NCBI RefSeq assembly: GCF_028583425.1
Contig: NC_072800.1
Coordinates: 9,065,001 to 9,129,000, forward strand
Length of the DNA stretch: 64,000 nt
From: Eublepharis macularius
Taxonomy: Eukaryota; Chordata; Lepidosauria; Squamata; Eublepharidae
Direction of reading: 5' to 3'
In this document: positions 15,901 through 61,891 of the stretch, in pieces
Layout of the letters: the number at the start of each line of letters is the position of its first letter
Position numbering within the stretch: position 1 is the first letter of the stretch
Program-made: the position numbers and the translations under genes
Notes under the pieces: generated by a model
What the model saw: the letters and a program-made list of their open reading frames with translations, nothing else
What the model was told of the DNA's origin: nothing
Databases searched by the model: none

Positions 15901-18900
15901 ATTAATGTGCTTGAACTAAGAGCCATTCGTTTCGCACTTGTGTCCCTTACAGCACTGCTGAAAAATCGCCAGGTGTTGGTGCAGACGGACAACACGACTG
16001 CCATGTACTACGTAAATCAGCAGGGGGGCACAGTGTCCATGGCCCTGTGCCGGGAAGCCACGCTCACTTGGCAGTGGGCAATCAGGAATGGCGTGACAAT
16101 TCGTGCTATACACGTGGCAGGGTCAGACAATGCCCGAGCGGATACCCTGAGCAGGGTCCTTCTGCTGGACCACGAGTGGGAACTGAACGTAGAGTACATT
16201 GGGCCGATCTTTCGGATGTGGGGTCATCCGGATATAGATGTGTTCGCAACTGCAGCGAATACCAAGGCCCAGACATTCTGTTCGAGGGCGGGGAGCGACC
16301 CCCTCTCTATTGGGAATGCCTTCCAGTGTATGTGGACTCAGGGATTGCACTATATGTTTCCCCCGTTCCCTTTGATTCCAAGGGTCCTATGCAAACTGGA
16401 GGCGGACGGGACAGACTGCATCCTGGTGGCCCCGTTTTGGCCCCGGCAGGTTTGGTTCCCAAAGCTCCTACGGATGTCCCAACGGACATATGTCAGTCTG
16501 CCCCCTCGTCAGGACCTCCTTCTGAACGGGGACTTAGTCCATCATGACCCCGGGAAACTGCACCTGACGGCTTGGCGGATCCTTCCTCCCCTGTAGGTTT
16601 TTCGGATCAGGTGAAGAAGGTCCTCTTGAATGCTCGCAGACCATCCACTAGGCGCTCTTATGCGGCCAAGTGGCGCAGGTTCGAAATTTGGGCACTTGCT
16701 AAAGGGGTGGTGCCTGCCAGCAGCCCCCTAGGGGTTGTATTCGATTACTTGTGCCACCTGCGTGACCTGGGCCTGAAGGTTTCCTCTCTTAAGGTCCACC
16801 TTGCGGCTATCTCTGCTGCTCACACCAGAGTTGATGGTGGTACAGTTTTTTCTCACCCTCAATCCCGTCAATTCCTTAAGGGCATGTTCAACCTATACCC
16901 ACCTGTGTCAGCACCGGTACCCCAGTGGTCGCTTTCCCTGGTGCTCTCACAGCTTATGTTGCCTCCGTTCGAACCTCTAGCAACCTGCCCCTTGGACATG
17001 TTATCGTACAAGGTGGCATTCCTGGTGGCCGTAACATCGGCCAGAAGGGTCAGTGAGCTGTCTGCGTTGCGGTCTGACCCTCCCTTCCTTGTGTTTCATC
17101 CGAACAAGGTGGTCCTGCGTCCCTGCCTAGGTTTCCTACCTAAGGTGGTGTCCGCCTTCCATCTCTCGCAGGATATTGCATTGCCTGCGTTTTTTCCTCA
17201 CCCTTCCTCGAAGGGGGAGAAGGCCCTCCATTCCCTAGACTTGAAGAGGGCCATAGCCTATTATCTGGATAGGACGAAAGGATTCCGGTCGAGCCCTCAC
17301 CTGTTTGTGTGCTTTGGGGCCAAGGACAAGGGTAACAGGGCTTCTTCACAGACCCTGTCTAGGTGGATTGTAACGGCCATTAGCAAGGCCTATTCCCTGG
17401 CAGGGGTAGCTTGCCCGCTTCATGTCAGGGCCCACTCCACGCGGTCCCAAGCATCCTCCTCGGCGCTACTCAGAGGTGTGCCCCTGGCTAACATTTGCAA
17501 AGCGGCCACATGGTCCTCTGCAGACACCTTTGTCAGGCACAATGCCATAGATGTCAATGCCGAGCAGGATGTTTCGGTGGCCAAGGCTGTTCTACACTCC
17601 CTTTTTTCCTAAGGGAGTCTTGGAAAGGGTTTCTTGGCGTACCTGCTAGGTACCCTTGAGTGAAAGAGTGTATATATGTATATTTATGTGTCTCTATATA
17701 TATGTAAATATTGGATACTTATTTATCACTACACAGTTTGTATAGATGTATGTATGTATATCTATAGTGTTGTTGTTCTTGTTCTTTAATAAAATTGTGT
17801 TGGATTTCACCCCACCTTCCTTATTGTGTGAAGCTTGGTACACTCCCATGTGTGGAGGCACAGAAGAACGAAGATGAAAACAGGGTTAACATACCTGTAA
17901 CTTATGTTCATCGAGTTCTTCTGTGCTGACACACAACCCTCCCTCCTACCCCGCTGTGAATTCCAATGCACGACACTGTGATGGCTGTAACGGGAATTGG
18001 TGTTTTTAAGGTGTTATGGCTAAGGGTATTGGTCAAGCGGCGGCAAAGGAGAACTGAGGGAAGGGGCCGTTGGTCGCTGGAGGAGCATGTGACCGTTTGG
18101 GCGGGAAAACGGTCGCTGAGGCGCGCGACAAACGGCCCCCTTCGGAGCCATAGAAGCTATAGAAAATTCTCCGGCGGCTGGCCTGCGCCTGCGCAGTCCC
18201 CATGTGTGTCAGCACAGAAGAACTCGATGAACATAAGTTACAGGTATGTTAACCCTGTTTTATAGCAGTCTTGGACATATGATGGTGTCTGTTGAGTCAG
18301 ACCATTAGTCCATATAGCCCACTGTTGTATATACTTAGAAGCAGTGGGTTTCAGGATCTTGGCTACAAACTGTACCCGATCCTGCAGCTGGAGATCCTTT
18401 TAACTGGACAGGCCAGTGTGTGAACCTTCGGACCTTCTGCATGCAAAGTATGTTCTCTGCTACACTCCTGCCATCTAGAAAAAAACTTACTTGAAAAATT
18501 GGACGTTCTGAACTCTTGTGTTAATTTTGAAAATGCCATAGAATTCCTTGTTCTTAGATCCAGAGGAGTTAGCTGTGTTAGTCTGTAGTAGCAAAATCAA
18601 AAAGAGCCCAGCAGCACCACCAAGACCAACCAATTCCACTGCAGCACAAGCCTTCGATAACCACAGCCCTCCATCTGGCGGGGAGGGCTTGTGCTGCAGT
18701 GGAATTATTGAAGGCTTGTGCTGCACTGGAATTGGATGGTCTTGGTGGTGCTGCTGGGCTCTTTTTGATTTTGCTACTACAGACTAACACGGCTAACTCC
18801 TTTGAACCTTTACACAAGCAAACTGATCCCCACATCAAAAGGAGCTGTTTGCATCCCCACATCAAAAGGAGTTGTTTACATCCCTCCTCTCCTCCCCCTC

Positions 18901-25269: not shown

Positions 25270-26110
25270 TGTCTTGGTACGGTGCTCGCGGTTTCATCAA
25301 CGGACGAAACCGGCCAGCTAGTATTATTTTAAACTCTTGGCTCAGCGAGGCACGAAGAGGCCGCCACTTCGTGCCTAAACGGACCTGGTTCCCCGCCCAC
25401 AGACGAGGCTTTCGCTATAAACATAGCAAAGCCTAGAGCGGTATCTCCCCGGACCCTTGCTTATGACGCTATTTAAAAGCGTCCGGTCGCCCAGGTAACG
25501 TCCCCTGCTTCCAGGCTCGCATCTCGCCCCCACAAAAACGCCCTGACATAAAATTGCCGCGATCGTTCCGATGGGTGACGCCACCGCGGCCGCGACGGGA
25601 AGGGCGATGGCGGCGGCCGCCTCGAGCTCGGGGCGGCGGCGGCCGGCGGCGGTGGGGCAGGAGGAGCTGCGGCGCCTCATGAGGGAGAAGCAGCGGCAGA
25701 CGGAGGCCGCCGGGAAGAAGAAGAAGGTCGACTCGCCCTTCGCCAGATATCCTGACCCGCCGCGGCTTCGGCTGCTGCTGAGAGGGAGGGAGGGAGGAGC
25801 CGGGAATCCGCCGGGGCTGCGCAACGCCCTCCCGCTGGCCCCTCGGCGTGGGGCTGGAGCTTCGTGGCGGCGCCTCTCGCCTGCGGCCTTCCTCTCGTCC
25901 CTGGAGACGGCGGGAGGGGCTGGAGCCGGAGCGGCCTCAGGAGGAGAGACCCGGGCTGGGGTCCCCGCTGACGGGGCGCCTCGGCCTCGCCTCCCTCACG
26001 GGGTGGTGGTGAGGGGAAGGGAGGAGGGCAGGATCCTGGGCCCCGCCCCGAGCCGTGGGGGCTCAAATGGGATGGGCTCCTCTCCTGTCTTTTAACTGAG
26101 CAACCATGCG
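25270..26110 (+). promoter_or_regulatory. CpG island and promoter region of ZNF830
   Basis: CpG-dense, GC-rich DNA unlike the AT-rich flanks, covering the 5' UTR, exon 1 and the start of intron 1. TATA-like strings lie at about 25413 (GCTATAAAC) and 25467 (CTATTTAAAAG), the second inside a near palindrome. The transcription start cannot be placed from sequence alone. Confidence 0.7.
25607..25746 (+). CDS. ZNF830: ZNF830 exon 1
   Basis: Encodes [20 protein letters not shown] and [20 protein letters not shown] up to SPFAR, matching human [15 protein letters not shown] and SPFAKY. The exon ends CGCCAG and is followed by ATATCCTGAC; no GT donor lies nearby that keeps the homology. It sits in a CpG island. 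Confidence 0.92.
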
Positions 26111-29100
26111 AGGCGGGTGAGTCCGCGAGGGTGCCCTGGGCGCCCTTTAGTGAGGCTCGTGGCAGACCTTGAATTCTGGGCCCTTCCGCTTGAGTCGGAT
26201 TAAAATAGAAAGGGGTGCGTTTCTGAAGGGAAGCTAGGGCGTGGCCTAGATTTCGTTAATTACTCTGGGCACATATTTCGCCCTCAGAAGCTCCGTTGTC
26301 AACATCTTAAATACATGTTTTAGTTTGAATGCAGAGTGGTGTAAATGGCTTATACGTTATTATAACTACATTTTATTTTCAAGGTACATGTATTTATTTG
26401 TCACCTGCCTTTCCCCCTAAGGTGACTCACTGAAAAGTACCTTATGGTCAGTGTTTTATTGTTGTTGGCATAAAACAAAATCAAAGACACCTAAATTTAA
26501 ATATACAAAATACAATCAGAACTTACATTCTATAGTCTGTAATTCTCATGGTATCTATAGCAATTCAAGCAGTAGGAAACTAAAATTTATTCGTCCAGTA
26601 CCAAAATTGAAAGTCTGCATACTCCCTCACATTGTCTGCTTCTGCAGCAACCTTTCCCTTTCCTAAATCACTGAAAAGCCCTTCCAGATAATTCTGCCTT
26701 ACAGTTCTTGGAAGGGAGCAAGAAGGAGCCGTGCCAGCTTTTTCCATTGAGCCATTCAACAAAAACATAATCGCAAGCAAGATCTGGCAGAGTTTTCAAC
26801 ATTCCCTTGCAAAACAGGGCTTTAAAAGAGTTGTTCTCCAGGATTAGAGTTCTGAGCTGTTTGAGTTTTTTTGCACGGTTTCTTTAACTGAAATTTTTAC
26901 ATATAATAGTTTGGGGAACTTAAGTTGCTCTCTGTGCAGTGTACCTGTGAAGACTGAACTATTGTGGCAAACACATGTTCTTGGAAAACAACACAAAGAG
27001 GTGAGAGGTCATGTTTTGTGTGGTAGTATATTTGTATTTAAGTCTGTGATACTGAAAAAATATAGTATGTGTAGATTTGGCCCTTTCAACTAAGTGATAG
27101 GTTTTATCTAATAGTAATTGGTTAAAAACTTGTTTCATCTGATGTGCTGAATATCTGGATGGCACAAGGGATATCCAGAGAATTCATAAAAAAAATTTGT
27201 TAGTCAAATTATCAGCCCACTTAGCCCGGCATTCAGCAGATAGGATATGTATATATGCTACAGTAAATACATCTAAAGAACCATGAGAGTTTTAGTTGAT
27301 TTTACATAAGAAATGTAGTAAAGAAAATATACAATTTGTAGCCTTGTACTCATTAAGTCTTGGTTGGATTGTCCAGTTTTATTTCTTTATTGTGTAATTT
27401 ATAATTGTTACTAGTTTTATAAATAATATTTTATAGAAGTTAGTTAAAATTTGCAGATTAATTAATATATGAACATTAACTGTTATTTCTTTGTCTAGTA
27501 TACTTGATTTTGTTTCTGTAGCTAAGGCTGCAATCCTATGCACACATACTACAAAATATGTCCTGTTGATCTGAGTGAGACTTACTTTTGATTAAATAAG
27601 CATAGGAAGGGAAATATCCTGTCCCTTTTGGAAATTTCCTTCTCCTATGAATTAATGCTATGAAAAAGCTATAAACTTACTTTTTTAAAAAATAAACATT
27701 TTTAGTCTTCATCATTCTGTAAGGTAAAGTTTGGTGTAGTGTTTAAGAGCAGCAGGACTCTAATCTGGAGAGCCAGGTTTGATTCTCCACTCCTCTGCTT
27801 GTAGCCAACTGGGTGACCTTCGATCAGTCACAGCTCTCTCAGAGCTGTCTCAGCCCCACCCACATCACAGGGTGATTGTCATGAGGATAATAATAACAAC
27901 ACACTTTGTAAACCTATCTGAGAGGGCCTTACCTGTCCTGAAGGGCAGTATATAAATCAAATGTTAATTGTATAAATGTGAAGAACACAGAAATTTCCTT
28001 TCATAAGTGTAGATTTCGTCAGGGTGAAAATAACTAGATGATGGTACTTTTGGATTTTTTACCCCAGTGTTGTGAAATGTACTGAATAAAGGGTAAGTTA
28101 CAGTAATTGCCTTAAACATTATTCCAGAACTTTCTAGGTACTTTAATTTGCTGTGGTTGCCATATTGTATAGTTTGTGGATTAACACTTTTGAGTGTTTT
28201 TTTTAACGCATCTGCAGTTTTAGGCTAAGTTAGGCATAATGCTGGCTTCTTGTTAACTATGTTGAAGAAATAATTGGTGCTGGGAATGCATACATCTTCC
28301 TCCAGACTACTTGGAGGTGAATTCTATCCCTCCTGCCTTTACCTCCCATTGATGGAAATGCCAGAAGCAACCTGTTCAAGGTTCCCCTTTAACTAGTGCC
28401 TGAACCTAGAATTTCATACTGGGTCAGATTCTATGCATGGTAAGCCTGGGTAGGGTTAGCCCCCCATGAGATGGAGATGAGAGGTGGAAGGAGTCTGAGT
28501 TGTTGCAGCTGACTTACAGTCTCCTAATTGGAGTTAAGGGGGACAACATTCAGTCTGGATCAGTCCTTTGTGGCTGAATGAATATAACTGGGAGCTGGAA
28601 TTACCATGGCTGCTGGCACCAGACTTGCCTTCCAGTGTATCCTTGTTAAACGCTGGTCACCAGAATACTCACTCACTCCTGATCTGGGAAGGTAGTGTCA
28701 GAAAATAAAATGGGTCTCTGTGCACTTATCTATGTTGAATTGCATCCTGTTCACGACTGCCCACTTCTCCAGAGTATTCAGGTCTTGTTGAATTTTAACT
28801 GTATCTTCTTGGGTGTTTGCTACTCCTAATTTGTTATCATCAGCAAATTTAATGAGTAGCCCGTTTCCCTCTTCATCCAGATCATTGATAAAAATATTAA
28901 AAAGTACCAGGCCCAAAACCGAGCCCTGTGGCACCCCACTGGACACCTCCCTCCAATCTGATGAAACGCCATTGATCACCACTCTTTGGGTGCGGTCCTC
29001 TAACCAAGTTCCCTATCCACCAAACTGTCCTATAGTCCACTTCGCAGTCTTCCAGTTTACCCATTAGAATGTCATGGGGAACCTTAACAAAAGCTTTACT

Positions 29101-32100
29101 GAAATCCAGGTAAATAAAGCACAGGTATTCATCTTCTGGTTGAAAATTGTCTCCCCAGAAACTTGCACAGTTAAAAGATCTCAAGCAGTCAGTACCGGGC
29201 CCGACTCCTGATGTGTCATCTTCTCTCAAAAGGAAAATTGCAGACACAGAGTTTCCAGAGCAGAAAAAAAGGAAAGGTATAGCCTCACAATGCAGTGTTC
29301 ACGAAACTGTAACCTTTAATTTTTATGTGGCTTTGTTTTTTTGCCTGTCCTAGAAAAATTGATGAAAACAGCAAAATTTGGTGGCAAGTTTTTGTATATG
29401 CAAGCTACGATGTAGATGGATATTGTATTTGCTGGTATTATATATTTCTCTAGCTAGTATAGCTGGTATGTGCCCTAACCTGGATAGCTCAGGCAAGCCC
29501 AATCTCATCAGATCCCAGAAGCTAAGCAGGGTCGGCCTTGGTTAGTAATTGGATGGGAGACCTCCAATGAAAACCAGGGTTGCAGAGGCAGGCAATGGCA
29601 CACCACCTCTGTTAGTCTCTTGCCATGAAAACCCCACCAAGGATCACCTTTATGGCACTCTCCACCACCAGAGCTGGTATGGTAAGTACAGGTCACATGA
29701 ATAATACAAGATCTGCCAGTGTTTGCTGGGAATGTAGAAAAGCATGTAGCTCATGAGCCCAGTGAACTAGGTGGGTCTCAGTGCACTACCAGTCCCAGAT
29801 GTTATCTCATGAAGAGAGCCCGTGTGGTGTAGTGGTAAGAGTATCGGCCTAGGATCTGGAAGTCCAGTGTGAGAATCCCTGCTTTACCATGGAAGCTTGG
29901 TGGGTGACCGTGAGGCAGTCACATATACTCAGCATATCCTACCTCACAGGGTTATTGGAAGAATGAAAATGGAGGAGAGGAGAACAACTTAAGCCAGTTT
30001 GGGTCCCCACTGGGAGGAAAGTCGGGTAAAAGTGAAGCAAATAAACATTAAGAGTGCGTTGCTGGAATTGCCAAGCTTGTGTCCACAGCAGCCTTGTAAA
30101 TGATAAGTTAGGACCAGGTTACCTGTAGTGCACCACTGAAACATCTGCTGTGTGCCAGTGCCATGATGGAGCACCGTAGTTGTGCTTCTCCTTTACCTAA
30201 ACTTAAAGGGCCTGTTCAGGCTTGAAAAAGTTTAAAAATTCCAGAGATGTATGGAGGATCTCTCTCTCTCTCTCTCTCTTAACGACACTAATCCAAGGAA
30301 AGCCATTTAACAAGCCCCTGCACCTCAGTATCTCTCTTGTGAAGTTCATATTTCTAGTGATTTTTGCGGCACAAAACTCTGAAAATGGTGTCTTATTTTT
30401 CAGATCCTGCTGACTGCCCACAGACTGTTGCATCTGGGTAAGCTAGGTATTTTATTGCTAAGTGTGGATGTAAACAAGACACTTTGTCCTCTGCTCAGTA
30501 TGTAAAGTCATTGGGTGGGATCCTGTGGATCTGTTCTGCTTGCATAGACATTTTCCTTCAACAAATAGAGCCTTTCTCAGTGTCTTGCAACAGACTAAGG
30601 CTCCTTTCATCTGAGGAAAATTCCTCCACTAGGACTAGGACAAAAGGCTATTTGAACAGGACTCTCTAATGGTTTGTATGCATGTGGCTTTTGGGACATC
30701 GCCTCAGTTCTACTATAAGCCTTTTGGATGGAGGACCTTTGTCTCATGGTGAGCCCCTGGACACAAGTAACTCATTGCATGGAGATTACCAGCATAGAGG
30801 AGCCATTTAACGTCTCCTCCATGTTGTTTCTTGTGCTGGAGCCCATAACTGCATGTTACACTTAGAGGTAGGTAATATTATGTTAAAAATCCATGTACAT
30901 TATTTCACTAAGCCTTGCAGGAGTCAGTATTATTTCCATATTGCAGATCTGAGGGAGGCTGTGGCTCTTCGGAGCTGGATTTTGAACATTATGGCCTGTG
31001 CAGCTTCCACATGGAGATAATTCCTTATGCAGCTCTTGTTGTTGCAGTGAATGCAAAGGAAATTGTAGTGGCAATGGAGGGTCCACACCAGGGTTCCCGC
31101 GAACATGCACTCCTGCGCTATGGCGCAGGAATTGTCACAACTCAGCGCAGAGTTGAGAAGCCCCAGCGCACGGAATGCGCTGGGTGCTGGAGGAGGAGCC
31201 GCGGCAGGCACCCGCGCTGCCTTTCCCTAGTCCCTCACCAGGCACGGGGAAAGAGCCGCAGCAGGCGCCCGTGCAGCCTTTCCCCGGCCCCTCGCCGGGC
31301 TCTGGAGGAGGCATCGCAGCAGGCGCCTGCGCTGCCTTTCCCCGGCCCCTCGCCGGGCTCTGGAGGAGGCATCGCAGCAGGCGCCCGCGCTGCCTTTCCC
31401 TAGTCCCTCGCCAGGCTCGGGGAAAGAGCCGCAGCAGGCGCCCGTGCAGCCTTTCCCCGGCCCCTCGCCGGGCTCTGGAGGAGGCATCGCAGCAGGCGCC
31501 TGCGCTGCCTTTCCCCGGCCCCTCGCCGGGCTCTGGAGGAGGCATCGCAGCAGGTGCCTGCGCTGCCTTTCCCTGGCCCCTTGCCAGGCTCGGGGAAAGA
31601 GCTGCGGCAGGTGCCCGTGCAGCCTTTCCCTGGCCCCTCACTGGGCTCTGGAAGAGGAGCCGCGGCAGGCGCCCACGCAGCCTTTCCCCAGCCCATCGCT
31701 GGGCTCTGGAAGAGGCACTGCAGCAGCCGCCCGCACGGTCTTTCCCCAGCCCCTTGGAGGAAAGAGCTGCGGCAGGCATCCACGCGGCCTTACTCAGGCC
31801 CGTTGCCGAGTGTGGAAGAGGAGCCATGGTGGGCATCCCCAAGACCTTTCGCCAGCCCGCCAAGCATCCTCTCTGGCCCAGTGCTGGAGGAAAAGGTGGC
31901 GGCAGCAGCGGCAGGCACCCATGCTATTTCTCACCAGCCCACCGAGCAGCCTCTCTGGCCCGGCGTGGGTGCTGGAGGAGGAGGAGGAGGAGGAGGAGAT
32001 GGCAGTGGTGTTTCACACTCCCAGGGTTGCCAGCTCCAGGTAGGGAAATACTCTTTTTGTGTGTGTGTAAATTCACGACTAAGGAAATCTGTTTTACATG

Positions 32101-35100
32101 CACACAAAAAATTAACTTCCTAGTCACAAAGACTTGCATGGCAAGGAAAATTCATGACAGAGCTAGGGTCTGAATCTGGAAATTTTACACGTGCTGGTAA
32201 GACAGGCTGTCCTCTAGTTAAATTACTCCATGGGGAGTGGGGAGCTGCGGCCTCAGTTTTACCAGTATTTTTGTACATCAACGGCATTCTGCTTATATCT
32301 TCAGGGGAGAATAGATCATTGCAATACAGTGTAATAAAACAGAATGGCAAGCAAGGAGAAGGCAGGACTTCAGTGCTGACTTTACGCTTTATGACTTGAT
32401 TTCATTTCAAAGATTCCATGACCAGAACTCACAAAGAGAAAAGGAAAGAGTTTTAAAGCCATGAAGCCTCCAGGGTGACTAAAGGCCAGTTCTAGGCTGT
32501 TCCAATGAGCAGCTCTCAGCTGGAAGCTAAATAGGTGCTCCCCCTGCAAGTTCAGCCAGCTTCCTTCTTCTTTCTGCAGACCTGGCCACAGAAGAGACAG
32601 GAAATGCCAATCGACAGAGCAGAGGTAGAGGGAGGGATGACTGCCCATCACATTCTGTTTAGCATTTGCTTGTGGGCAAAGAGGAACCCTGACTGAAGCT
32701 CATCTGCCTGATGTTGCCCAAAATGCAAAGAAAACTCTGGCAATACACTGATGCCTGTGGAAAGAAATGGTGTCTGAGCCATTTGCAGGCATGCTTCACA
32801 ACACCTTTTTATATAAAACACAGAAGGGAATAGCCAGAGAGTGAGTGCATTGCGGGGCTGGATGGTGCACAATTCTTCTTCTCTGTAGATCCAGAGGAGT
32901 TAGCCGTGTTAGTCTGTAGTTGCAAAATAGTAAAGAGTCCAGTAGCATCTTTAAGACTAACCAACTTTATTGAGGCGTAAGCTTTTGAGAACCACATGCC
33001 TAAGTGGGTGTCATCAGCATATTGATGGCACCCAATACCAATGCCTCAGACAACCTAAATCAAAAGTCTTTTAATCAAATGGATTCTGGTTTTCGAAAAG
33101 GCGCGCTCACAACTTGCACGTTGCTGCTCACAAATTGGATTTCTGGCTCACAACACTGCACCGCTTAGAGGGAACTCCACACAGCAGCTTTCTCTGCAGT
33201 TTCCTTGCTTCAGACCCGTGTGACCAACTTTTCCTCCCCCCTCCATTGGAGAGCTGCCTACCTTCCCATCCTCGTGCATCCAAAGGTGCTTAGACTGTGA
33301 TCTTTTGAAAAAGATTGTACAAAAACAGATTTAGGAAAGATAGCAGGAGAACAGGAGGCAACACAGAAACAGGACAAGTAGAGGGTGAAATCCTGGGGGA
33401 GCTCCTGAAATCAGCGTTGCTATAAGGAAGCTAAGGCAGTGGAAAGAAATCTTTGTCACAACAGTCCTGGATATAAAGGAACTGGAACTGATTCCACATA
33501 TACAAGATGCATGGGTGGGGGGCGTGCCACATGGCAACTTTCTTTTGAAATTGAGGGGGCTGCCGTAGTTTGTCCCAGGCACAGTGTGTGTGCCACTGTA
33601 GAGGACAAGATCATTCCACTGGGCATGTCCAGCCTTTTGGATCCTAGCTTATATTGCGCTGGATCCTGCACTGGCAGGGACCCTTTTTTTTCAGCAGAAG
33701 CAGCAAGGAAAGTCTCCTCCTGCTGCAAAAAAGTACATCTGTTAGCAGAACAGATCTGTCAGCTCCAACTCGGTATGAGTACGTAAAAACATTAAACATT
33801 TTGCCTCTTTCTCCTTAGGCTGCCAGCAGACTTTTTTAGCCAAAAAACCCCAGTGGATGCAGAAAGAGTCTCTTCAAAAGATTCAAGCTGCAGTTTATTG
33901 CTGGGAGACTATGAAGAGGAGGATGAGGAAGAGGATGAAGAGACGGCAGAAACCAAAGACCACAGCAGCAAGCCACCTCTTTCTTCACCTGTCCAAAATA
34001 CAACAACTCCAGACCCTCTTCAGAAAGCAACCTCTGCTGCTGCTGTAGCGTCAGGTAATCTGACAGCTCTCTACAAACACCCCTGTGGCAAGTAATTCAG
34101 TTGCAGGACCTCACTAGCTAGAAAGGTGCAAATCAGACAGTTGGATTAATTTTCTTTTTGAGAGAATTGTGGTAGAACAAGGAAAACTGTTTCCAATTGA
34201 AAAGGGCTTCTGCTTGCTTAACCAAATACTATGATTTTTTTCAGCTGTATTTGCCATGTCAATAGTATAAAATACCTGGGGGGAAAAGCTACCAATTGTC
34301 TGGCTACTATGAAAAGAAGTCGAGTCATTTCAGTCTTGGCAGAAATAGCAGCATTCTTTAAACAGCTCAGTAAAGCCAGAAGTGGATCCGGAGGGATATT
34401 TTATCCAGTCTTACATTATCCAGAACCAGTGTTCAGTAGAAAGCAACCTTGGGGTATTTCCAATAGGGATGTGCAATTTGGGTTCGGTATTCGGTAAAAA
34501 TTACCAAATGTACCTGATTGGGTAAAATTCGGTGTAACTGAACTCTGTTCCTGAATAAATTAAGTTTACTGAATTTATTTGGTAAAATTCAGGAAGTGTG
34601 ACTGCGCTGTTCCTTGCTATTCCTTTCTTAAGGAACAGCAAAGAAACACTGCTTCCCACCTTTTTTTATGAGAAGGGAGGAGGAATGAGTCCGAGGTGAA
34701 AGGGAGGGGGGATCGTGAGTGGCCAATCCTTGAAGCATCTCTTTCTCTGGCCAATGGGATTCTCAAGAAGGAGAGTGCCTTTTTTAAACTGCTGCAAGGA
34801 GTTAAATTAGGAGGCTTGCCTCAGTCAGCCTCAATTTTCCTCTAGCCTGGCCTGCTTGCTGCTGTTGGCTATTGTTGAGAGCCAGTTTGGTGTAGTGGTT
34901 AAGAGCGCGGGACTCTAATCTGGAGAGCCGGGTTTGATTCCCCACTCCTCCACTTGAAGCCAGCTGAGTGACCTTGGGCTAGTCACAGCTCTCTGGAGCT
35001 CTCTCAGCCCCACCCACCTCACAGGGTGTTTTGTTGTGGGGATAATAATGGCATGCTTTGTAAACCGCTCTGAGTGGGCATTAAGTTGTCCTGAAGGGCG

Positions 35101-38100
35101 GTATATAAATCGAATGTTGTTGTTGCTGGCGGCTCTCTTGGCCTGCTTTGGACTGCAACTGGATCCTGCTGCCGAGTGAGTGGAGTGGATTCCTGGCTGT
35201 TGCCTGGTTTGAGAGTCATTAGACTCACTGGGTTCTTTCTCTCTTTGTAGGGAGGGCTTTGGCCTGGTGTCTGGGAGAGTTAGAGGTGGGGGGAAGGGAA
35301 AAGGGTTTTTTTTTAATTTTACATTTCCAAAACTGCTTTTTTTGCTGTGTTTGGGCTTTGTTTGGGCTTTTGCGTAGGGAGGCTTTGGTTTCTGACTTTT
35401 GAAGTTGGTTATATTTACTGTTTTATGTACTGTTTATTTACTGTTTGCTGCTTGTTCTGGGGGTGGGGGGGAGCTGTTTTTCCCTGTTATTGGGCTTTCT
35501 TTACAGAAGTTTGGGGGTTTTTTTTGCTAGGCTCAGTTTTCTGTTGGCATAGAAGTTTAATTTGGTCAGGTGTTCAATTGTTGTTGATCTTCTGGGGAGA
35601 AGTGTTTGTTGGCGTGCTTGATTCAGTTTATTAACTTAACCTAGCGGTGCTTGGGTGTATTTTTGGGGTATCCTGGGAGAGTTGTGCCCCTTCCCATCTT
35701 ATGTAAATATTTCCTTGTGCCATTTCCCCCTTTTTTTTTTGCACTATTCTGTGCACTGCTTGTGCAATACATGCTGATTAGACAACTACATATGCTAAAG
35801 CAAAAACTGGCATTCATTTGTTATTGATGGCATTAACACAGACTGCGGCTTATGCCACCTCTTTGCCTCTGACAGACCCACGTTGGCTGATGCTCCAGGA
35901 TAATGAATGCCATGTAATAGCTTTGCCAAAGGAAAGCTCCTCTGCTGGTGGAATGGATCCCCAGGCTCCAGGCAAAAATTGCGACTCACTACAATCCTCC
36001 CCACTCCCCATCGGATGAAAAAAGCTGCAGGGTGGGGAGCCAGAAAGCAACACTTTTCTTGCTGCTTACTTCCTACTGTGTATAGGATTAATATTTTTAG
36101 TATGGTAGTGAGTTCCTCAAGGTTTGTGTTGTGTGAAAAAAGTACTCTTTTTGTTCATGCTGAACCTGCTGCCAGTCAGTTTCACTGGGTGATCTAAAGA
36201 TAATGAGAGGAATTTCTCTGTCATTTCTACAGTCTTTCCCCCCAGACCTTTAGGTGTGTTTCCTTTCTTGCAGACCTCTTGGAAAACAAAACTGCAGCAG
36301 CTCCTGCAGCTCTGGTCTCTCACTCTGGCTCAATACAGAAAGCAGAAGTACAAGAAAAGATTGTGGAGAGGTAAAGGATCTAAACCGAAAGCTGAATCTT
36401 GTCTGCTTTGAAAGGGTCTAAACATTGTTTGCCTAGTAAAAGTAAGTGAAATGTGATATGGACTCTCTTGTAAATCTGTGTGTATTCTCCATTGTAATCT
36501 GTGTGTATTCTCCATTGTAATCTGAAGTATTGGTTGTTTTCTCAAAGAAGGCGAAGTCTGATGAAATTATTGCATCAGCATGTAGTGTTTCTGTTGTAGT
36601 GTTTCTCTGAAGGAATTAAAAACGTGAGCCCTATGCATTAGCCGAAGATAAACCTTCATTTTAACTTTTCAGGAGAGAGAACACAGCCGAGGCCTTACCA
36701 GAGGGATTTTTTGATGATCCTGAAGTGGATGCAAAGGCAAGTGTGATTTGTTCTGGTGATTTCAGCTCATATTAATAGAGGAATTAATCCAGCTAGCTCA
36801 GTTCTAATAGATTTACATAATCACTGAAAGTCCTTCTTGGTAGCTTTTGGTAAGTGATGCGGTTATGATGCTGATTTTTTGTCAGCCTTTTTTAGAGGGC
36901 TTCTGTGATGTGATACTTTAAGCAAGACTAGTCAGGTTGCTCTTGTATTTCTCATGTGTATTCAGTTTCCTCTAGTCTTACATAATCTCTTAGGAATTTT
37001 TACACATTTCAACGTGTTGACAAATGGAGAGCGTATTGAACACTCCAACTTTTTGAAATGCCATTGACATTTCCAGCTGTATTGCTGGTTCCAGTGACAT
37101 TTCTTCTGTCACTAGGCAAATCCATGTGGGCGTGTGTGTGTTGGTTAGCATTGTAGCCGAATTTGAGAGCCTTCCTCTATAGGAGGGGTGGCCACACTTG
37201 CTTAATGTAAGAGCCACATAGAATAAACATGAGATATTTGAGAGCCACAAGACATGATGCATTGAAGTGACTTCAGAGGAAGAGGCGGGTTTCGGGGAGT
37301 GCCCTGAAAGTGACATCACAGGAAGGGGTGGGGTTTGGGCACAGTATGCTGGAAGTGATGTCATCGGAAGGGGTGGAGCTTGGGAAGGACTCCCATCTGA
37401 CCTTTGACCTGGAAGTGACATTACAAAAAGTGATATCATCCTTGCAAGGCACCACCTCCAAAGTATTCTGGCTCCACCCCCAAAGACCCCAGGTATTTTT
37501 TGAGTTGGACTTGGTAACCCCAATGTTTTATTGAAAATAAGAAATACATGGAAAGAAAGAAGGAAGGAAAAAAGGAAAGGGAGGGAGGGAAAGACATGGA
37601 AAGACAGAAAGGAAGAAAAAGACAGAAAGGAAGACATGGAAAGAAGGAAGGAAAAGACAAAAAAAGAAGATATGGAAAGAAGGAAGGATGAAAAAAGGAA
37701 AGAACGAAAGACAAGGAAGGAAGGCATGGAAAGAAGGAAGGGAAAAAGGAAAGACAAGGAAGGCATGGAAAGATATGGAAGGAAGTAAAGAGGAAGGAAG
37801 AAAGGAAGGGAAAGAAGGAAAGAAATACATGGAAGGAAGGAAGGAAGGAAGACATGGAAAGATGAAGTAAAGAGAAAGGAAGAAAGGGAAAGAAAGATTT
37901 GGAAAGGTATGAAAAGATATAGAAGGAAGTAAAGAGGAAGGAAGGAAGAAAGACATGGAAAGAAGGAAAGGAAGAAATGGAAAGGTATGGAAAGAAGAAA
38001 AGAGGAAGGAAGGAAAGCTTGGAAAGATGGAAAAAAGTAAAAAGGAAGAAAGGCAGGGGAAGGAAGGAAGAAAGAGATGGAAAGAAGGAAAGAGAAAGGA

Positions 38101-41100: not shown

Positions 41101-44100
41101 CCCCCCCTCCTATTTCTTATGGCTTCAGATACGACTCCACAGGTAAACCTGGGGCCACCTCTGTCTTCAGTAGTGGATTTGAAGGTAAAAGGTAAATCAT
41201 CTCATTGATGCAGCGTGGCCGTGAGAGGCACAGCTGATCCCGAGCTTACCTTCCATTGCCAGTCTAACAAGGGTCAGTATGGTGTCTGCCTAAACGCTGT
41301 GCTCGTGTTCCCACATGGTGATGTCCTCTTTTGGCTTCCGGCGTTGGAGGTATACCTGAGATCTGGTGGAATAGTGAGGGGTGGGTTAAGTGACAGGAAG
41401 TCTCTGGTTCAGACCTGCTCCAGCCATGAGCTCATGGGGGGAACTGAACCTCTCTGCCTAAGTCTCCCATCTGCAATAGGGATTATATTAATTTTTTCTT
41501 TAAGATAATGTGTGTGAGATGCTCTGAAATATTCTAAAGTTCCATATAAATGCTGAGAGCTGTTAATATACTTATTTAGGTTTCTAAAGGCACGAGTCTT
41601 CTGAAGCATTGCAAAACATGTAAGTTTCTGGAATACACAGGGGTCTCTCACACACACTTTTACAAAATTTTTGCTTTTTTGATGGCTTTTTGGGAACCTC
41701 CCCTTCAGTTGTTCAACCTGTACAGGTAGGGGCATGTTCCTGTCTACTTGTAATCAGTTCTTGCAGCTTAGCATTTTTGTATGAGTTTTGACTGATAAGA
41801 CTGGCCAGATTTTCAATGCTTGTGTTTAAAGCAAAGAAATTAAAGAAGGTATTGCTAAAACCATATATACCACAATTTCTTGCAGTCCTCATAAGTATTA
41901 TCTCTGTGGTCTTTAGAACAGGAAAAGTTGTTGCTGTACCAGAAATGCCAGATCATTCTTAGCATTTCCAAAAAAAAAAAAGTTTAAGCTCTGGCAGCCT
42001 TAACATTTGCACGAAGGCAGAGCAAATTTATTGTTTTAAGTTAGGCTCCCGCCCCCCGCTGCAGATGTGGGCATGCGTTGCCTGTTCCAGAGCATCAGCA
42101 GGGCTTGGCGTCAGAACTCTTTGCTGCAGCATTTAGCAGAAGTAGAATCAAAGGTGGACTTAGAATTGTTGTCGAGAAGTAAGAGTGAAGCATTGGTTTG
42201 TTCTTAGGTCCGAAAGGTTGATGCCCCAAAGGATCAGATGGACAAAGAATGGGATGAATTCCAGAAGGCCATGCGACAAGTCAGCACGGTAAGTCGGTGT
42301 CTTCTGGCTCGAGCGGCTTGCAGAGTGCTGCCGAGTGCAGAACTGGAGCTTAGCGGAATGACTGTGTTTGCTGGCTGCTTGCCTTAATTTTGTGTAAGTT
42401 TACAAAGTGAATTTTAACAGTCTGCCATTCAAGAGTGGCCTGTCTAGCCCTATTCATACTGTGAAATTGATCCTTTTTTGGTAAAAGGCTGTATTCTTCT
42501 AAATCTGTTTTGTGGGACAGTTGGTGGGGGTGGGGGGAGATGGTGAAGATGGCTATGTACTTAACTTTCCTAAATTGATCCATGGACTCTGAATAAAAGG
42601 AGTGCAGTATGTATATGCCACAAAACCTTACTGAAGTGACATTAGGCACCTTTTGTCAATGTCTGTTTGTTTGAACTCTGCATTCGGCTCTATAAAAGTG
42701 TGAACCTGTCAGGTCTCTTGTGTCTTTATGCAAAGAGTCTGTACCTGTTGCAGGAGTTTGGGGGCTTTGTCGTGAATTTTAACAGTCCTCTGTGTGTGTT
42801 TATATTGGCAGATTTCCCTACCCAGTTGCACAAGGGGCTCTGTGGCTTGCCAGTGGGCTGTAGCAGATTCCACTCGGCAGCTTCTCCATTGTTTCTTGTC
42901 TTGGCTTTCAGACAATTCCCATAAATGAATTGTTGGGTGGAAAGTGTTGCAGAGCAGACCATATCCTGTTCCCAAATGTACTTGGTGCTGTCAACACAGC
43001 ACATGTTCATACAAGATCAGTTGTTGGCACGTTGTGTGAACGTGAGTAATCTGCAAGGGCTGTCCTTGGTTACAAGTTGACCATTGGCTGCACAGTATCT
43101 CCAAGACATTCAACCTTGAGAAAGTATATGCTGAAAGATATAACAGGTTAAAATACATTTTGAAATACAGATGAGGTGGTTGACAAATAATAACAAGAGT
43201 TCCTAGGCCTGACTTTTCACTATCATGGTATGTTCATAAAGCATCCTAAGATCTTTTGAATAGAAGCAGGCCCCTCCCTGCCTGTGCTGCGTGCCTTCAT
43301 CAAGTTGAGACTGAATTATGTTTTGAATTTGCTTACATTCTGAAGAACTATGTTAGCTGTAAATTAACATTGGTAATGCCATATCCCTCAGCGGTGGTTA
43401 AGGTGGGAAGAGTGAATCTGCTGTGGAGAGGGACCATAAAGGTTCTTGGCTGGCTCCTGGTCTCATAAATGCAGTTGAGAAGGCCAGCTTGAGTTGAACC
43501 CAGGCCCCCCCGGGTGTAGTTTTCTACATTTTCACAGCCTCTAGTGAGAAGAAGCACCCCACTCCGAGTTAACTCTAAATCCACTCCCCCCACCAGTCTC
43601 TTCCATTGGGAAATAATAAGATCGCTGTCTTTTCTGAGTTAGATTTCAGAAGCTATAATGGCCGAAGAAGATGAGGAAGGGCGACTTGACCGGCAGATTG
43701 GGGAAATTGATGAACAGATGTAAGTAGATAAATCCTGGCTTCCCAAAAATTGGGTTTTCCATAAAGTGGCTCTATTGATTTGTTTCTAAAAAATAAATGT
43801 TCATTTTAACATAACTTACCAATTGTATAATTTTGTTCAAAACTTGATTCATACATTTTTAATTTGCTGATATGCTTTTCAATTACATCAATTGTGTGTT
43901 TAAGAGAAAGATGAAATCAAAGCCTTCCAACAAGACGAAAGGCATGTTAAAGTCTCTCTTGGGCAAGCTGCATGTTCACCATCAGGGGCCACACTGGAAA
44001 TTTAACATGAGCTAATGAGACACAATAATGTCCATAAATTACCATTTCTGTATTGAAGGTTGAGGTAGGCTTAAATTGATCATCACTTCTTAATATCTGG

Positions 44101-46856
44101 CAAATACACAGAGGGCTGGTTCACACCATGTTTAAAAATCCATTAAAAATCTGTTCACAAGTGTTGCAATCTGCATACATCATGTAAGTCAGACAAAACT
44201 GTATAATTTTGCAAGTTTTACTATTCTGTTAGATACTGGAAGGGACACTGAAGCCTCCCCCCATATGAAAATCTAATCCAGCAGCTCCTCTCATTCTGAT
44301 ATTTCATAGCCTTTGCCAACATGCTTTCAAGCATGTCTTTGTAAACATGAAGACTAGAAACTTAAGGAAAGCTAATTTTCTTGGCTGAATCCTTCAGCCA
44401 CAATTGCATCCTGCAGGTCTTTACTGCAAACATCCCGCACTCGTGACATGGAGCCAAGTGATGCAGTCCCAGACTCGAAGGTACTCTAGCATCGGATTAG
44501 TGTGTGGCACCCTGCAGCACGGGTCTGCTGTATACGTTTCTTAGAAACTCCGTATTCCACAAGAACACTTCAGATGCAATAGCTAAGGAGTCCTGGATGG
44601 CATTTGTTTCTGTGACAGATACTTTGATGGGTTTGGTTACCTTTTGGAATTGCAAGAAGAGGAAACGAAAGAGAGCTTAAATTCAACTAAGGTTTTTTTT
44701 AGTACAGTTCACTTTTATATCTGGTCCTGATGGAAAATGCACAAGACTCTAGACTGTGATGAACCTGTATTGTTTTGCCAGATATGATCAAACTGCCCCT
44801 GTTATCCTATAAGTACCAGGCTTAGCAAGGGTAGAATTAACTTTTCCCTAAAAATAAGCAACATACAATTGGTAGGAGGGCCCAGGAATGCTGACACACT
44901 TGGTTCCTCAGCTTTAGAGCACTCCAGTCTGCCTGCTCTACTTCCCTCCCGCCAGCTCCAATGCTTCAGTGAAAACAAGAATATAGTATTGGGGTTTAGG
45001 GGGTTTAGGTTTCTTGTTCCTAAAAGTTCTGGTTTAAAACCCATTTAAGGTCTTGTTTTAAGGTCTTACGACTATCTAAAAAATGATGGAAACGATTTAA
45101 GATGTTCTCCTTCCAGGAACACAAGAGTAAACTACCATTGCAGAAGTCTGATACCTTTATTTTAAGTGTTGTGTTAAATTGGGTCATCTGAAAGCCACTT
45201 ACCATGACCCCTGAACTGTATGACTGCTATACTTTTCTATCCTGTGGCAAGGCAATGTGTTCAGCCTGGCAAAGGAAGTCAAGTTCCTAGCATCCTTAAC
45301 TGTTGCTAGCCTAACATTTTGTTTGTTGACATTCCTTCTGACCTTGGTATGCCATAAAGTTTCTGAATCAAGTCAGTGATACTTGCAGGTTCCTGTCTCT
45401 TCAGTGTTTCATGTGCAATTGATTGTTAAGCCTTAATCATGAACAGGCTAAGCCATAACATTATTCTCACGCTCTTAGGTTAGAAGTGAACCAGAACAGG
45501 ACTGCATTCACAACCCTGTATGTAGGGTTGAATTAAAGTAACATTTATTCTGGATAGTAGAAATACATTGTTTCTGTGTAGGTATTGTTGAGGATCAGAC
45601 ATCAAAAGAAGCAAAATAAAGTAGCCAAAGGTTGATTCCTGGTATGTCCTAAAATCAATAGTTTTTGAACAGTTGCAGAAAAACATTTCCTTGGAAACTT
45701 GGAAAAAGCTCAGTGAGAACCTTTGTGAACTGAGTGAATCCCTAAAACGTGCTCCAGAATCCTTTGTAACGCTTACGGCTTCTGTGGCAGATACGCAGGG
45801 GCTCCAAGGCAGAAGCACATGGAAAATTTCCCCAGAGATACCCAGTCTGAGTCCTGCTGCCTTTTCCTGGACGTGGACATTCGGCCAGACCTACCTTTTA
45901 AGAATCTGCTCTCCGAAAGGACAGAATGAGCAACTGAGGGGATGGAGTGTGTGTGTTTAAAAACCTGTCTCCATAGGCAGTGGAGAGGACCTTGACCAGT
46001 GGTACAAGTTTAAATTGACCTCCCTTAGTTCACAGTGTTTCTGAAGAGCCATAAGGCTTTCCACAAAGATACAAAATCACACGTGAGCGGATGGCTCGGT
46101 TGAAAAATCCTGTAGAATTTTAATACAGATGCATTTTTTCCAGATAATGGCTCCAGAGAAACACAGTCTGCTTAAGCTGGGGAAGAGAGAGGACTGCTTA
46201 CAGAAATGCCTCCTAGAGAGTGCTTTCCATATAGTACTTTTAATCCTGGGTATAATTTTTTTAAATAAAATATGTCGGGGGGGGGGTGGTCTGTAAGAGT
46301 GGAAAGGTAGCAGGTCCACAACATGATATGCCCCCTTGGAAACAAATGTGGCCAATCTGGAAGTGCTGTGGAAGCACAGGAGGAGGCCTCCATAGGAACT
46401 GTGGGGCTGACTGAGAAGGTGGCTGCAGCTCCCCATGGAGGCAGCCTTGGTAGTGACTTATCTGGGCACTGGAACACCAGAGCCTTGCAGAGGTGCTCAG
46501 CTGCTATTTGCCCCCCGTCTCCACCTGCCGCTCATGCCTCCATGATGCTCATACGTAAGAAACAGCAGTTGTGTGAGCATTTCCTCATAAAAACCGGTCC
46601 CCCTTCAAGAACTGTTTCACTTGGCACCCTGTTTTCCCGGAGCATGACCACCGTATTCTTATCTTGCCCTAGTGAATGCTTCCGCCGTGTTGAGCAGCTG
46701 CGTGACCGCCAGGATATCATGAGAGAGAAGCTGAAGGAGGTGATGCGCCTGAGTGCCACCCAAGCCAAAGAGGATGAAGATCTTGGCAGTGAGGATGAAG
46801 GGGAGCTGCAGGATTTGCTCTCTCAGGACTGGAGAGCAAAAGGGACTTTGTTGTAG
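25607..46856 (+). CDS. ZNF830: ZNF830 (CCDC16) zinc-finger protein, ten-exon gene with a U12 intron
   Basis: ZNF830 is a nuclear C2H2/U1-type zinc-finger protein with a C-terminal coiled coil, linked to pre-mRNA splicing and genome stability (family knowledge). Joining 25607-25746, 26901-27000, 29159-29276, 30404-30437, 33819-34054, 36274-36370, 36673-36736, 42208-42288, 43643-43719 and 46673-46856 gives 1131 nt, 376 residues plus TAG, against 372 in human. Visible parts: QEELRRLM at the N-terminus, zinc finger [20 protein letters not shown] then KQH, an acidic stretch [49 protein letters not shown], the coiled coil from [10 protein letters not shown], and the end [11 protein letters not shown]. 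Intron 1 is AT-AC (U12) and intron 7 is GC-AG; the others are GT-AG. The start at 25607 has G at -3 and +4; an upstream in-frame ATG at 25571 has a weak context and would add 12 residues. The gene is intronless in human and mouse. Confidence 0.95.
25747..26900 (+). other. ZNF830 intron 1, AT-AC minor-spliceosome (U12-type) intron
   Basis: The intron starts ATATCCTGAC (U12 AT-AC consensus ATATCCTT) and ends TTCTTTAACTGAAATTTTTAC. Only this cut restores the conserved [17 protein letters not shown] junction. The 5' half continues the CpG island; around 26384-26430 there is a short fragment of a dispersed repeat tail. No other feature is visible. Confidence 0.88.
26880..26889 (+). promoter_or_regulatory. 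U12 branch-point sequence
   Basis: TTCTTTAACT matches the U12 branch consensus TTCCTTAAC(Y) at nearly every base. The branch adenosines at 26886-26887 are 13-14 nt upstream of the last intron base, within the narrow spacing the minor spliceosome uses. Confidence 0.85.
26901..27000 (+). CDS. ZNF830: ZNF830 exon 2 (zinc finger)
   Basis: Starts ATATAATAG after the terminal AC of the U12 intron and encodes [20 protein letters not shown] then [13 protein letters not shown]. The Cys2-His2 spacing is that of U1/matrin-type fingers. Donor GTGAGA, phase 0. Confidence 0.95.
27727..27968 (+). repeat. Sauria-type SINE
   Basis: tRNA-like head (GTAGTGTTTAAGAGCAGCAG, GGTTTGATTCTCC), body with CCTTCGATCAGTCACAGCTC and CAGCCCCACCCACATCACAG, and the BovB-like tail GGGCAGTATATAAATCAAAT. 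In ZNF830 intron 2. Confidence 0.85.
28698..29128 (-). mobile_element. LINE reverse-transcriptase fragment (Jockey group)
   Basis: The minus strand encodes [42 protein letters not shown] and KFADD, the central reverse-transcriptase motifs, with a frame change and a few differences from intact copies. Only about 430 bp is present. Its upstream end lies about 30 nt before ZNF830 exon 3. Confidence 0.85.
29159..29276 (+). CDS. ZNF830: ZNF830 exon 3
   Basis: Acceptor CTCCCCAG. It encodes [20 protein letters not shown] then [20 protein letters not shown], aligned with human KVAELKGAKEASQG and SVKRKAPDADDQDVKRAKA; it includes basic clusters KRK and KKRK. Donor GTATAG, phase 1. Confidence 0.92.
29468..29665 (+). 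repeat. 5S-rRNA-derived SINE
   Basis: CCCAATCTCATCAGATCCCA, GAAGCTAAGCAGGGTCGGCC and TTGGATGGGAGACCTCC follow 5S rRNA closely, then comes the SINE body with GCAATGGCACACCACCTCTG. In ZNF830 intron 3. Confidence 0.85.
29809..30050 (+). repeat. tRNA-derived SINE
   Basis: Head GTGTGGTGTAGTGGTAAGAG and TATCGGCCTAGGATCTGG, body with GGGTGACCGTGAGGCAGTCA and CCTACCTCACAGGGTTATTG, tail GGGTAAAAGTGAAGCAAATA. Confidence 0.8.
30257..30280. repeat. (TC)n microsatellite
   Basis: About ten TC units, just upstream of ZNF830 exon 4 (about 125 nt). Confidence 0.9.
30404..30437 (+). CDS. ZNF830: ZNF830 exon 4 (34-nt microexon)
   Basis: Acceptor TTTTTCAG, donor GTAAGC; phases 1 in and 2 out fit both neighbours and give [12 protein letters not shown]. 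Similarity to human here is weak, so the call rests on splice sites, phase, and the following LPADFF start of exon 5. Confidence 0.75.
31180..31990. repeat. 58-bp GC-rich minisatellite
   Basis: About 11-13 tandem units with a spacing of 57-58 bp, for example TCTGGAGGAGGCATCGCAGC starting at 31301 and 31359. Typical unit parts are CTGCCTTTCCCCGGCCCCTC and GGAAAGAGCCGCAGCAGGCG. Units drift towards the right end and finish in a GGA run (31974-31998). Frames stay open on both strands because the period and composition avoid stops; not a gene. Confidence 0.9.
32887..33005. repeat. Palindromic repeat family, half copy
   Basis: TCCAGAGGAGTTAGCCGTGT then TAGTCTGTAGTTGCAAAATA and AACTTTATTGAGGCGTAAGC; one arm of the family seen whole at 18553. 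Confidence 0.7.
33076..33171. mobile_element. hAT-like terminal segment
   Basis: CGCTCACAACTTGCACGTTG, TGGATTTCTGGCTCACAACA and CTTAGAGGGAAC match the end of a reptile hAT family whose canonical end is TTAGAGGGAACACTG. A possible partner end is CAGGGTTCCCGCGAAC at about 31094; similar but not identical flanks (GTCCACAC and TCCACACA) make the pairing uncertain. Confidence 0.4.
33819..34054 (+). CDS. ZNF830: ZNF830 exon 5 (acidic region)
   Basis: Acceptor TCCTTAG, donor GTAATC. It encodes [20 protein letters not shown] then [16 protein letters not shown], the acidic stretch equivalent to human LLPDYEDEEEEE. This part of the protein is low in complexity and poorly conserved. Confidence 0.9.
34463..34875. 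repeat. Unclassified repeat starting ATAGGGATGTGCA
   Basis: The ATAGGGATGTGCAATTTGGG start and the TTCGGTATTCGGTAAAAATT core resemble a dispersed squamate element. The element may run on past the Sauria SINE to about 35770; the far end was not identified. Confidence 0.35.
34876..35126 (+). repeat. Sauria-type SINE, full length
   Basis: From GAGAGCCAGTTTGGTGTAGT through GGGTTTGATTCCCCACTCCT and CTTGGGCTAGTCACAGCTCT to the BovB-like GGGCGGTATATAAATCGAAT and GTTGTTGTTG. The best-preserved Sauria SINE in the window, so probably the youngest. Confidence 0.92.
36274..36370 (+). CDS. ZNF830: ZNF830 exon 6
   Basis: Acceptor TTCTTGCAG, donor GTAAAG. It encodes [20 protein letters not shown] and [12 protein letters not shown], matching human HSGSIEKAEIHEKVVER. 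Phase 1 in, phase 2 out. Confidence 0.94.
36673..36736 (+). CDS. ZNF830: ZNF830 exon 7, followed by a GC donor
   Basis: Acceptor TTTTCAG. It encodes [20 protein letters not shown] then AK, almost identical to human. The exon ends AAG and the intron starts GCAAGT, the strong form of a GC donor; the next exon starts VRKVD exactly as human DARVRKVD requires. Confidence 0.95.
37183..38751. mobile_element. hAT-type element, 1569 bp, with 8-bp target duplication
   Basis: Ends GAGGGGTGGCCACACTTGCT and ATTTGGCCAACCCTG are inverted repeats (canonical CAGGGGTGGCCAAA). The flanks are exact 8-bp repeats CTCTATAG at 37175-37182 and 38752-38759. The subterminal GAGCCACATAGAATAAA and GAAGAGCCGCATGCAGCTTG are family hallmarks. 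There is no transposase; the interior is replaced by a purine tract and GC-rich DNA. Confidence 0.9.
37533..38155 (+). repeat. Purine-rich (GGAAAGA/GACATGGAAAGAAGGAAG) tract
   Basis: About 620 nt almost entirely A and G on the + strand, built of GGAAG, GAAAG and ACATGGAAAGAAGGAAG units with interruptions. The complementary strand gives long Phe/Leu/Ser-rich frames (up to 420 codons) that are artefacts of the composition. Confidence 0.95.
42208..42288 (+). CDS. ZNF830: ZNF830 exon 8
   Basis: 81 nt in phase 0, acceptor TTCTTAG, donor GTAAGT. It encodes [20 protein letters not shown] and AMRQVST, one of the most conserved blocks of the protein. Confidence 0.96.
42289..43642. other. ZNF830 intron 8
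   Basis: Nothing recognised besides short low-complexity runs; a C-rich block at 43505-43515. Confidence 0.5.
43643..43719 (+). CDS. ZNF830: ZNF830 exon 9
   Basis: Acceptor GAGTTAG, donor GTAAGT, phase 2 out. It encodes [20 protein letters not shown] then EIDEQ, the start of the C-terminal coiled coil. Confidence 0.96.
43720..46672. other. ZNF830 intron 9
   Basis: AT-rich, repeat-poor DNA. Open frames here (for example 46323-46672 leading into the last exon) are intronic read-through, not coding. Confidence 0.5.
46673..46856 (+). CDS. ZNF830: ZNF830 terminal exon
   Basis: Acceptor TTGCCCTAG. It encodes [20 protein letters not shown] through [20 protein letters not shown] and RAKGTLL, then TAG. 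Human ends [17 protein letters not shown]. Confidence 0.97.

Positions 46857-53936: not shown

Positions 53937-61891
<7,955 letters not shown>

Follow-up and report, generated by a model that had tools for sequence, protein, structure and literature searches.

A very probable minor-spliceosome AT-AC intron in ZNF830 of Eublepharis macularius, with the spliced join preserved in a processed pseudogene of the same genome

Intron 1 of ZNF830 (CCDC16) in Eublepharis macularius is almost certainly an intron of the rare U12-type AT-AC class, probably ancestral, that is removed by the minor spliceosome. The gene lies within a stretch of 64,000 nucleotides from contig NC_072800.1 (assembly GCF_028583425.1, positions 9,065,001 to 9,129,000, forward strand), hereafter the window; positions are counted from its first letter unless a contig is named. 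The original prediction of such an intron, read by eye from the letters of the DNA, is borne out by the splice sites and branch distance, by the exon join preserved in a processed copy of the gene, and by the minor snRNA genes matched in the genome, all of which were observed directly. From a single genome, with a pseudogene serving as a natural cDNA, this evidence confirms that the AT-AC intron is in all likelihood a genuine minor intron.

Gene Model and Identity

The ZNF830 model comprises 10 coding exons on the plus strand (25571 to 46856) that encode 388 amino acids in an intact frame. Splice-site ends are present at all nine junctions, giving one AT-AC, one GC-AG, and seven GT-AG introns. 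The features are as follows.

25571..25746, plus strand: exon 1, coding part, 176 nt, with a phase 2 end ...GCC AG (translation, processed copy)
25747..26900, plus strand: intron 1, AT-AC, very probably U12-type, 1154 nt (splice sites, matrix scores, processed copy)
25747..25755, plus strand: U12-type 5' splice site ATATCCTGA, 7/8 against ATATCCTT, G at +8
26880..26889, plus strand: U12-type branch site TTCTTTAACT, branch A at 26886 or 26887 (matrix, U12 pairing)
26901..27000, plus strand: exon 2, C2H2 zinc finger (Pfam, join, processed copy)
29159..29276, plus strand: exon 3 (processed-copy alignment, gene model)
30404..30437, plus strand: exon 4, 34 nt (located only via the processed copy)
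33819..34054, plus strand: exon 5 (processed-copy alignment, gene model)
36274..36370, plus strand: exon 6 (processed-copy alignment, gene model)
36673..36736, plus strand: exon 7, then the GC donor AAAG/GCAAGT (processed-copy alignment, gene model)
42208..42288, plus strand: exon 8 (processed-copy alignment, gene model)
43643..43719, plus strand: exon 9 (processed-copy alignment, gene model)
46673..46856, plus strand: exon 10 with the stop codon (processed-copy alignment, Pfam ZNF380_CC)

A splice-site search for exon 4 yielded two candidates, both of which proved wrong once the processed copy had placed this exon. Intron 7 (36737-42207) combines a GC donor, GATGCAAAG/GCAAGT, with an AG acceptor; its join is confirmed by the processed copy, and ZNF830 therefore carries both AT-AC and GC-AG introns.

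Exons 1 and 2 together matched the Pfam families zf-C2H2_jaz (9.2e-6) and zf-met (3e-4), and the joined exons 5-10 matched ZNF380_CC (8.2e-32), which is the pairing of a C2H2 jaz finger with a ZNF380_CC coiled coil expected of ZNF830/CCDC16. Global alignment of the window protein with an approximate human ZNF830 sequence was collinear from end to end, with near-identity from HSGSI to EIDEQIEC and looser agreement outside. When probes from this human sequence were searched, the best match fell inside the gene for seven of nine and outside it for two (parts of exon 3 and of exons 4-5). PDB sequence searches with the N-terminal and C-terminal parts of ZNF830 and a neighboring ORF returned no ZNF830 chain (the N-terminal part, at E up to 10, matched six chains, the best being SF3A2 at 0.46); identity therefore rests on Pfam and the approximate human sequence. 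The original description of the product as a splicing-linked protein is backed by excerpts of a study that treats ZNF830 (CCDC16) as a subunit of the IBC and co-expressed it together with SYF1/XAB2, ISY1, and PPIE (PMC10208982).

Boundaries of Intron 1

Intron 1 begins with ATATCCTGAC (25747-25756) and ends with TTTTTAC at 26900, between an exon 1 that closes with GCCAG at 25746 and an exon 2 that opens with ATATAATAG at 26901; the donor, the TTTTTAC end, and the exon 2 start were thus predicted exactly. Joining 25746 to 26901 restores the conserved SPFARYNSLG block. Nine shifts of this join were tried (-3 to +5). Since each boundary is followed by ATAT, five of the shifts (0 to +4) gave identical mRNA, and AT-AC is the only canonical class to be found at the ends of these equivalent joins.

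Splice-site pairs of the GT-AG, GC-AG, and AT-AC classes were enumerated with the donor in 25690-25799 and the acceptor in 26850-26944. Within this range, both the frame and the zinc-finger block survived in two GT-AG and 18 GC-AG pairs, but SPFARYNSLG was produced by none of them (0/2 and 0/18, respectively), in line with the prediction that no GT-AG pair restores the conserved join. Three AT-AC pairs kept the frame, the predicted intron among them.

The transcript might nevertheless use other sites, in which case the AT-AC ends would be an accident of the protein alignment. In-frame GT-AG alternatives do exist (25727-26856 and 25727-26865), and an AT donor with AG at 26909 also keeps the frame, as judged by position. 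However, the alternative pairs lose part of SPFARYN, and the processed copy described below reads SPFARYNRLGNLSC at the exon 1/exon 2 join, with no extra residues; we consider such an accident extremely unlikely and retain the AT-AC join.

A Processed Pseudogene as Natural cDNA

A protein search of the 2.24-Gb assembly to which the window belongs gave 13 matches, nine in ZNF830 and four at one other place, C11:45,457,537-45,458,687 on the minus strand, which lies on the same chromosome approximately 36 Mb from the parent gene. By blastn, this copy (C11:45456500-45459800 examined) aligns in collinear order with parts of each of the ten exons and with the 3' UTR, and 1,132 of 1,258 aligned bases are identical, a count that takes in a short 5' flanking-repeat stretch and a few bases beyond the true edges of exon 4. 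A 13-bp direct repeat, AGAAAAATGCCAC, borders the copy on both sides, and its end is A-rich; such a combination is the mark of LINE-type retroposition. With its introns absent, a target-site duplication, an A-rich end, and a broken frame, the copy qualifies as an old ZNF830 processed pseudogene, and it provides the strongest of the new evidence. Its exon 2 also contains an extra 26 nt, which resemble a local duplication.

At the junction of exons 1 and 2, the DNA of the copy reads TTCGCAAGATATAATAGATTGGGG; the join is AAGATATAATAG, as predicted, up to a 4-nt slide, and no sense-strand 15-mers of intron 1 occur at the locus. Because the exons are joined in the copy, a germ-line transcript of an ancestor was spliced at intron 1. 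The copy thus stands in for RNA evidence indirectly: it reports an ancestral transcript rather than present-day RNA, and it is only by this route, and to within the same slide, that a transcript boundary is placed at 25746/26901.

The presence of two ZNF830-like places in one genome might suggest that it is the processed copy that works and that the window gene is dead, leaving intron 1 unused. Such an exchange of roles is exceedingly improbable, however, as the window gene retains an intact frame of 388 codons with splice-site ends at nine junctions, whereas the copy has indels and stops in all three sense frames.

U12-Type Signals and the Minor Spliceosome

The donor of intron 1, ATATCCTG, agrees with the U12-type consensus ATATCCTT at 7/8 positions, as expected of a U12-type donor; ATATCCT is intact, and positions +8/+9 read GA versus TT in the consensus. 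By itself, the donor motif is uninformative. ATATCCT was observed 11 times in the window versus 6.3 expected, and ATATCCTGAC has 2,974 copies in the genome, fewer than its reversed control (3,682). The branch site TTCTTTAACT resembles TTCCTTAAC, as a U12-type branch site should, and was located at 26880-26889, with candidate branch adenosines (26886 and 26887) 14 and 13 nt before the last base of the intron, the distance originally predicted. In U12-type AT-AC introns, the branch adenosine lies about 10-16 nt before the AC end, a range that the AC end and branch distance of intron 1 fit.

A U12 matrix scan, which had been named as a check on the prediction, placed intron 1 well above background; the matrix was a rough one that put assumed weights on the U12 consensus. 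On this rough matrix, with the site itself counted in each case and both strands included, 12 of 127,982 positions reached the donor score, and two of 6,603 AC sites had a branch score as high 10-16 nt before the AC. If independence is assumed, the joint chance of the donor and branch is ~3e-8, or ~1.4e-7 with the five slides. Among the eight introns of the gene scored (the two flanking exon 4 counted as one), only intron 1 had a positive U12 donor score (8.6 versus -3.2 to -17.4). For the branch, it scored 13.9, whereas no other intron exceeded 5.5. What is improbable is the combination of signals where the protein dictates the position, not the donor alone.

Full-length matches above the Rfam cut-offs were found in the genome for U11 (107.8 bits), U12 (143.5 bits), U4atac (111.8 bits), and U6atac (128.7 bits), with only the best candidates scored; an Rfam scan of the window gave no match above gathering scores. 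The U12 segment AGUAAGGAA forms 9/9 pairs (one G-U) with the branch site around one bulged A. By a crude score, U11 pairing with the intron 1 donor reaches 5.0 (4.5 in the register of the consensus site) versus 6.5 for the consensus, and U6atac pairing reaches 5.0 versus 7.0 for the consensus site; both are weaker because of the GA at +8/+9. A second U6atac-like copy (C14:65939859-65939983, 97.9 bits) is without part of the GGAGAGAAGG stretch and is perhaps a dead copy.

In the proposed mechanism, U11 and later U6atac would read the ATATCCT donor, U12 would pair with the branch site and bulge the branch adenosine, and the acceptor would be the AC that follows at the short distance typical of such branches. 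The other eight introns of ZNF830 (seven GT-AG, one GC-AG) would be expected to use the major spliceosome.

The major spliceosome handles a small number of AT-AC introns, and intron 1 could be one of them, its AT-AC ends notwithstanding; the GA rather than TT at +8/+9 and the U11 and U6atac pairing below that of the consensus site are in keeping with this. Against it stand the intact ATATCCT and a U12-like branch site that forms all nine U12 pairs and lies 13-14 nt before the end of the intron. Moreover, recognition of AT-AC introns by the U2-type spliceosome is described as poor (PMC7367187, in excerpt), and intron 1 of the fly gene CG11839/CCDC16/ZNF830 is listed as U12 AT-AC in the excerpted text of Lin et al. 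(2010; PMC2831892). Removal by the major spliceosome is therefore very unlikely, and we infer that intron 1 is removed by the minor spliceosome. Expression of ZNF830 can, in turn, soundly be expected to depend on this machinery.

Other Features of the Window

A retroelement occupies 12551-17612 (plus strand), with a reverse transcriptase match (RVT_1, 7.6e-24) and, after it, a Phage_integrase match below the cut-off, and we take it to be DIRS-like; the ORF preceding RVT_1 (13466-14746) matches LAP2alpha (6.8e-6). Element fragments at 1624-3303 (minus strand) contain an integrase core (6.6e-9), a Tf2-1-like SH3 domain (4.4e-13), and a weak, below-cut-off chromo match, and are presumably gypsy-like. 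At 53937-54434 (minus strand), a 165-aa open frame rich in Ser, Thr, Pro, and Ala has the look of a coding exon; searches of Pfam and the PDB, each at E 1, gave no match for it. A Pfam scan of 80 of the 175 flank ORFs of at least 62 aa found seven families with one member each at E 0.0012 or weaker, and yielded no names for genes flanking ZNF830.

Gene Location and Retroposition

According to excerpts of Lin et al. (2010; PMC2831892), chickens and frogs have a ZNF830 gene that does contain introns, and the intronless copies of mammals and fish are attributed to retroposition, with repeated intronless capture in mammals and two fish lineages. The gene order in cattle is RFFL, LIG3, LOC104969067, ZNF830, and CCT6B (PMC8113768, in excerpt), and RFFL, CCT6B, ZNF830, and LIG3 are named together at a locus on human chromosome 17 (PMC10487930, in excerpt). 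In the genome of E. macularius, the single match for the LIG3 BRCT domain is on C17 at 19.36 Mb, and the same contig carries a multi-exon CCT6-like gene at 20.46 Mb (11 of 23 matched pieces, each below the family cut-off). ZNF830 is located apart from both, at 9.09 Mb of C11, and no copy of it on C17 emerged when the assembly was searched with the protein; the intronless mammalian gene therefore sits where this animal shows none. These separate places fit the published retroposition account, and in-place intron loss in mammals is disfavored. The CCT6 search also matched other chaperonin-like places, and its single best match was an intronless frame on C12 (C12:78646382-78647896; CCT-like, 566 aa open without stops, best TIGR02347 match, below cut-off), a possible retrogene.

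One genome thus holds both states of ZNF830, the ancestral minor-intron gene and a dead intronless copy, the latter being the raw material for the replacements published in mammals and fish. On a speculative and improbable extension of this view, the minor spliceosome would gate the output of ZNF830, and with it a subunit of the major-spliceosome complex that includes SYF1/XAB2, wherever the ancestral intron survives; intronless retrocopies would be a selected escape, and the broken copy a failed attempt. Carrying intron 1 is probably the ancestral state. The original prediction had framed dependence on the minor spliceosome as a property of this lineage, a framing that does not hold, given that intron 1 of the fly gene has already been published as U12 AT-AC and that mammals and some fish are the exceptions (PMC2831892, in excerpt).

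Comparison with Known Introns

A literature search for minor introns in squamates returned none on the subject among the matches listed. CG11839/ZNF830 also appears in a table of fly U12-type intron genes (PMC2952598, in excerpt), and intron 1 of the window gene is not new in kind, its fly counterpart having been published (PMC2831892, in excerpt). Since the fly intron is reported as U12 AT-AC, that of the window is most likely its vertebrate counterpart, matched as the first intron rather than by codon. The two share the gene, the first-intron position, the AT-AC ends, and the U12 type, but differ in organism and in the G at donor position +8 of the window gene. Comparison with the intronless ZNF830 of mammals and fish, as excerpted from the same source, reveals the same protein and, in the C11 copy at 45.46 Mb, a likewise spliced-mRNA origin; whereas those retrocopies became the gene in use, here the intron-bearing parent was kept and the copy was broken. 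Relative to AT-AC U12 introns in general (ATATCCTT donor and TCCTTAAC branch; PMC2831892, in excerpt), intron 1 matches 7/8 positions in the donor and 7/8 in the branch core. It has the AC end and short branch distance in common with them, and departs from them in a T for C in the branch core and the G at +8.
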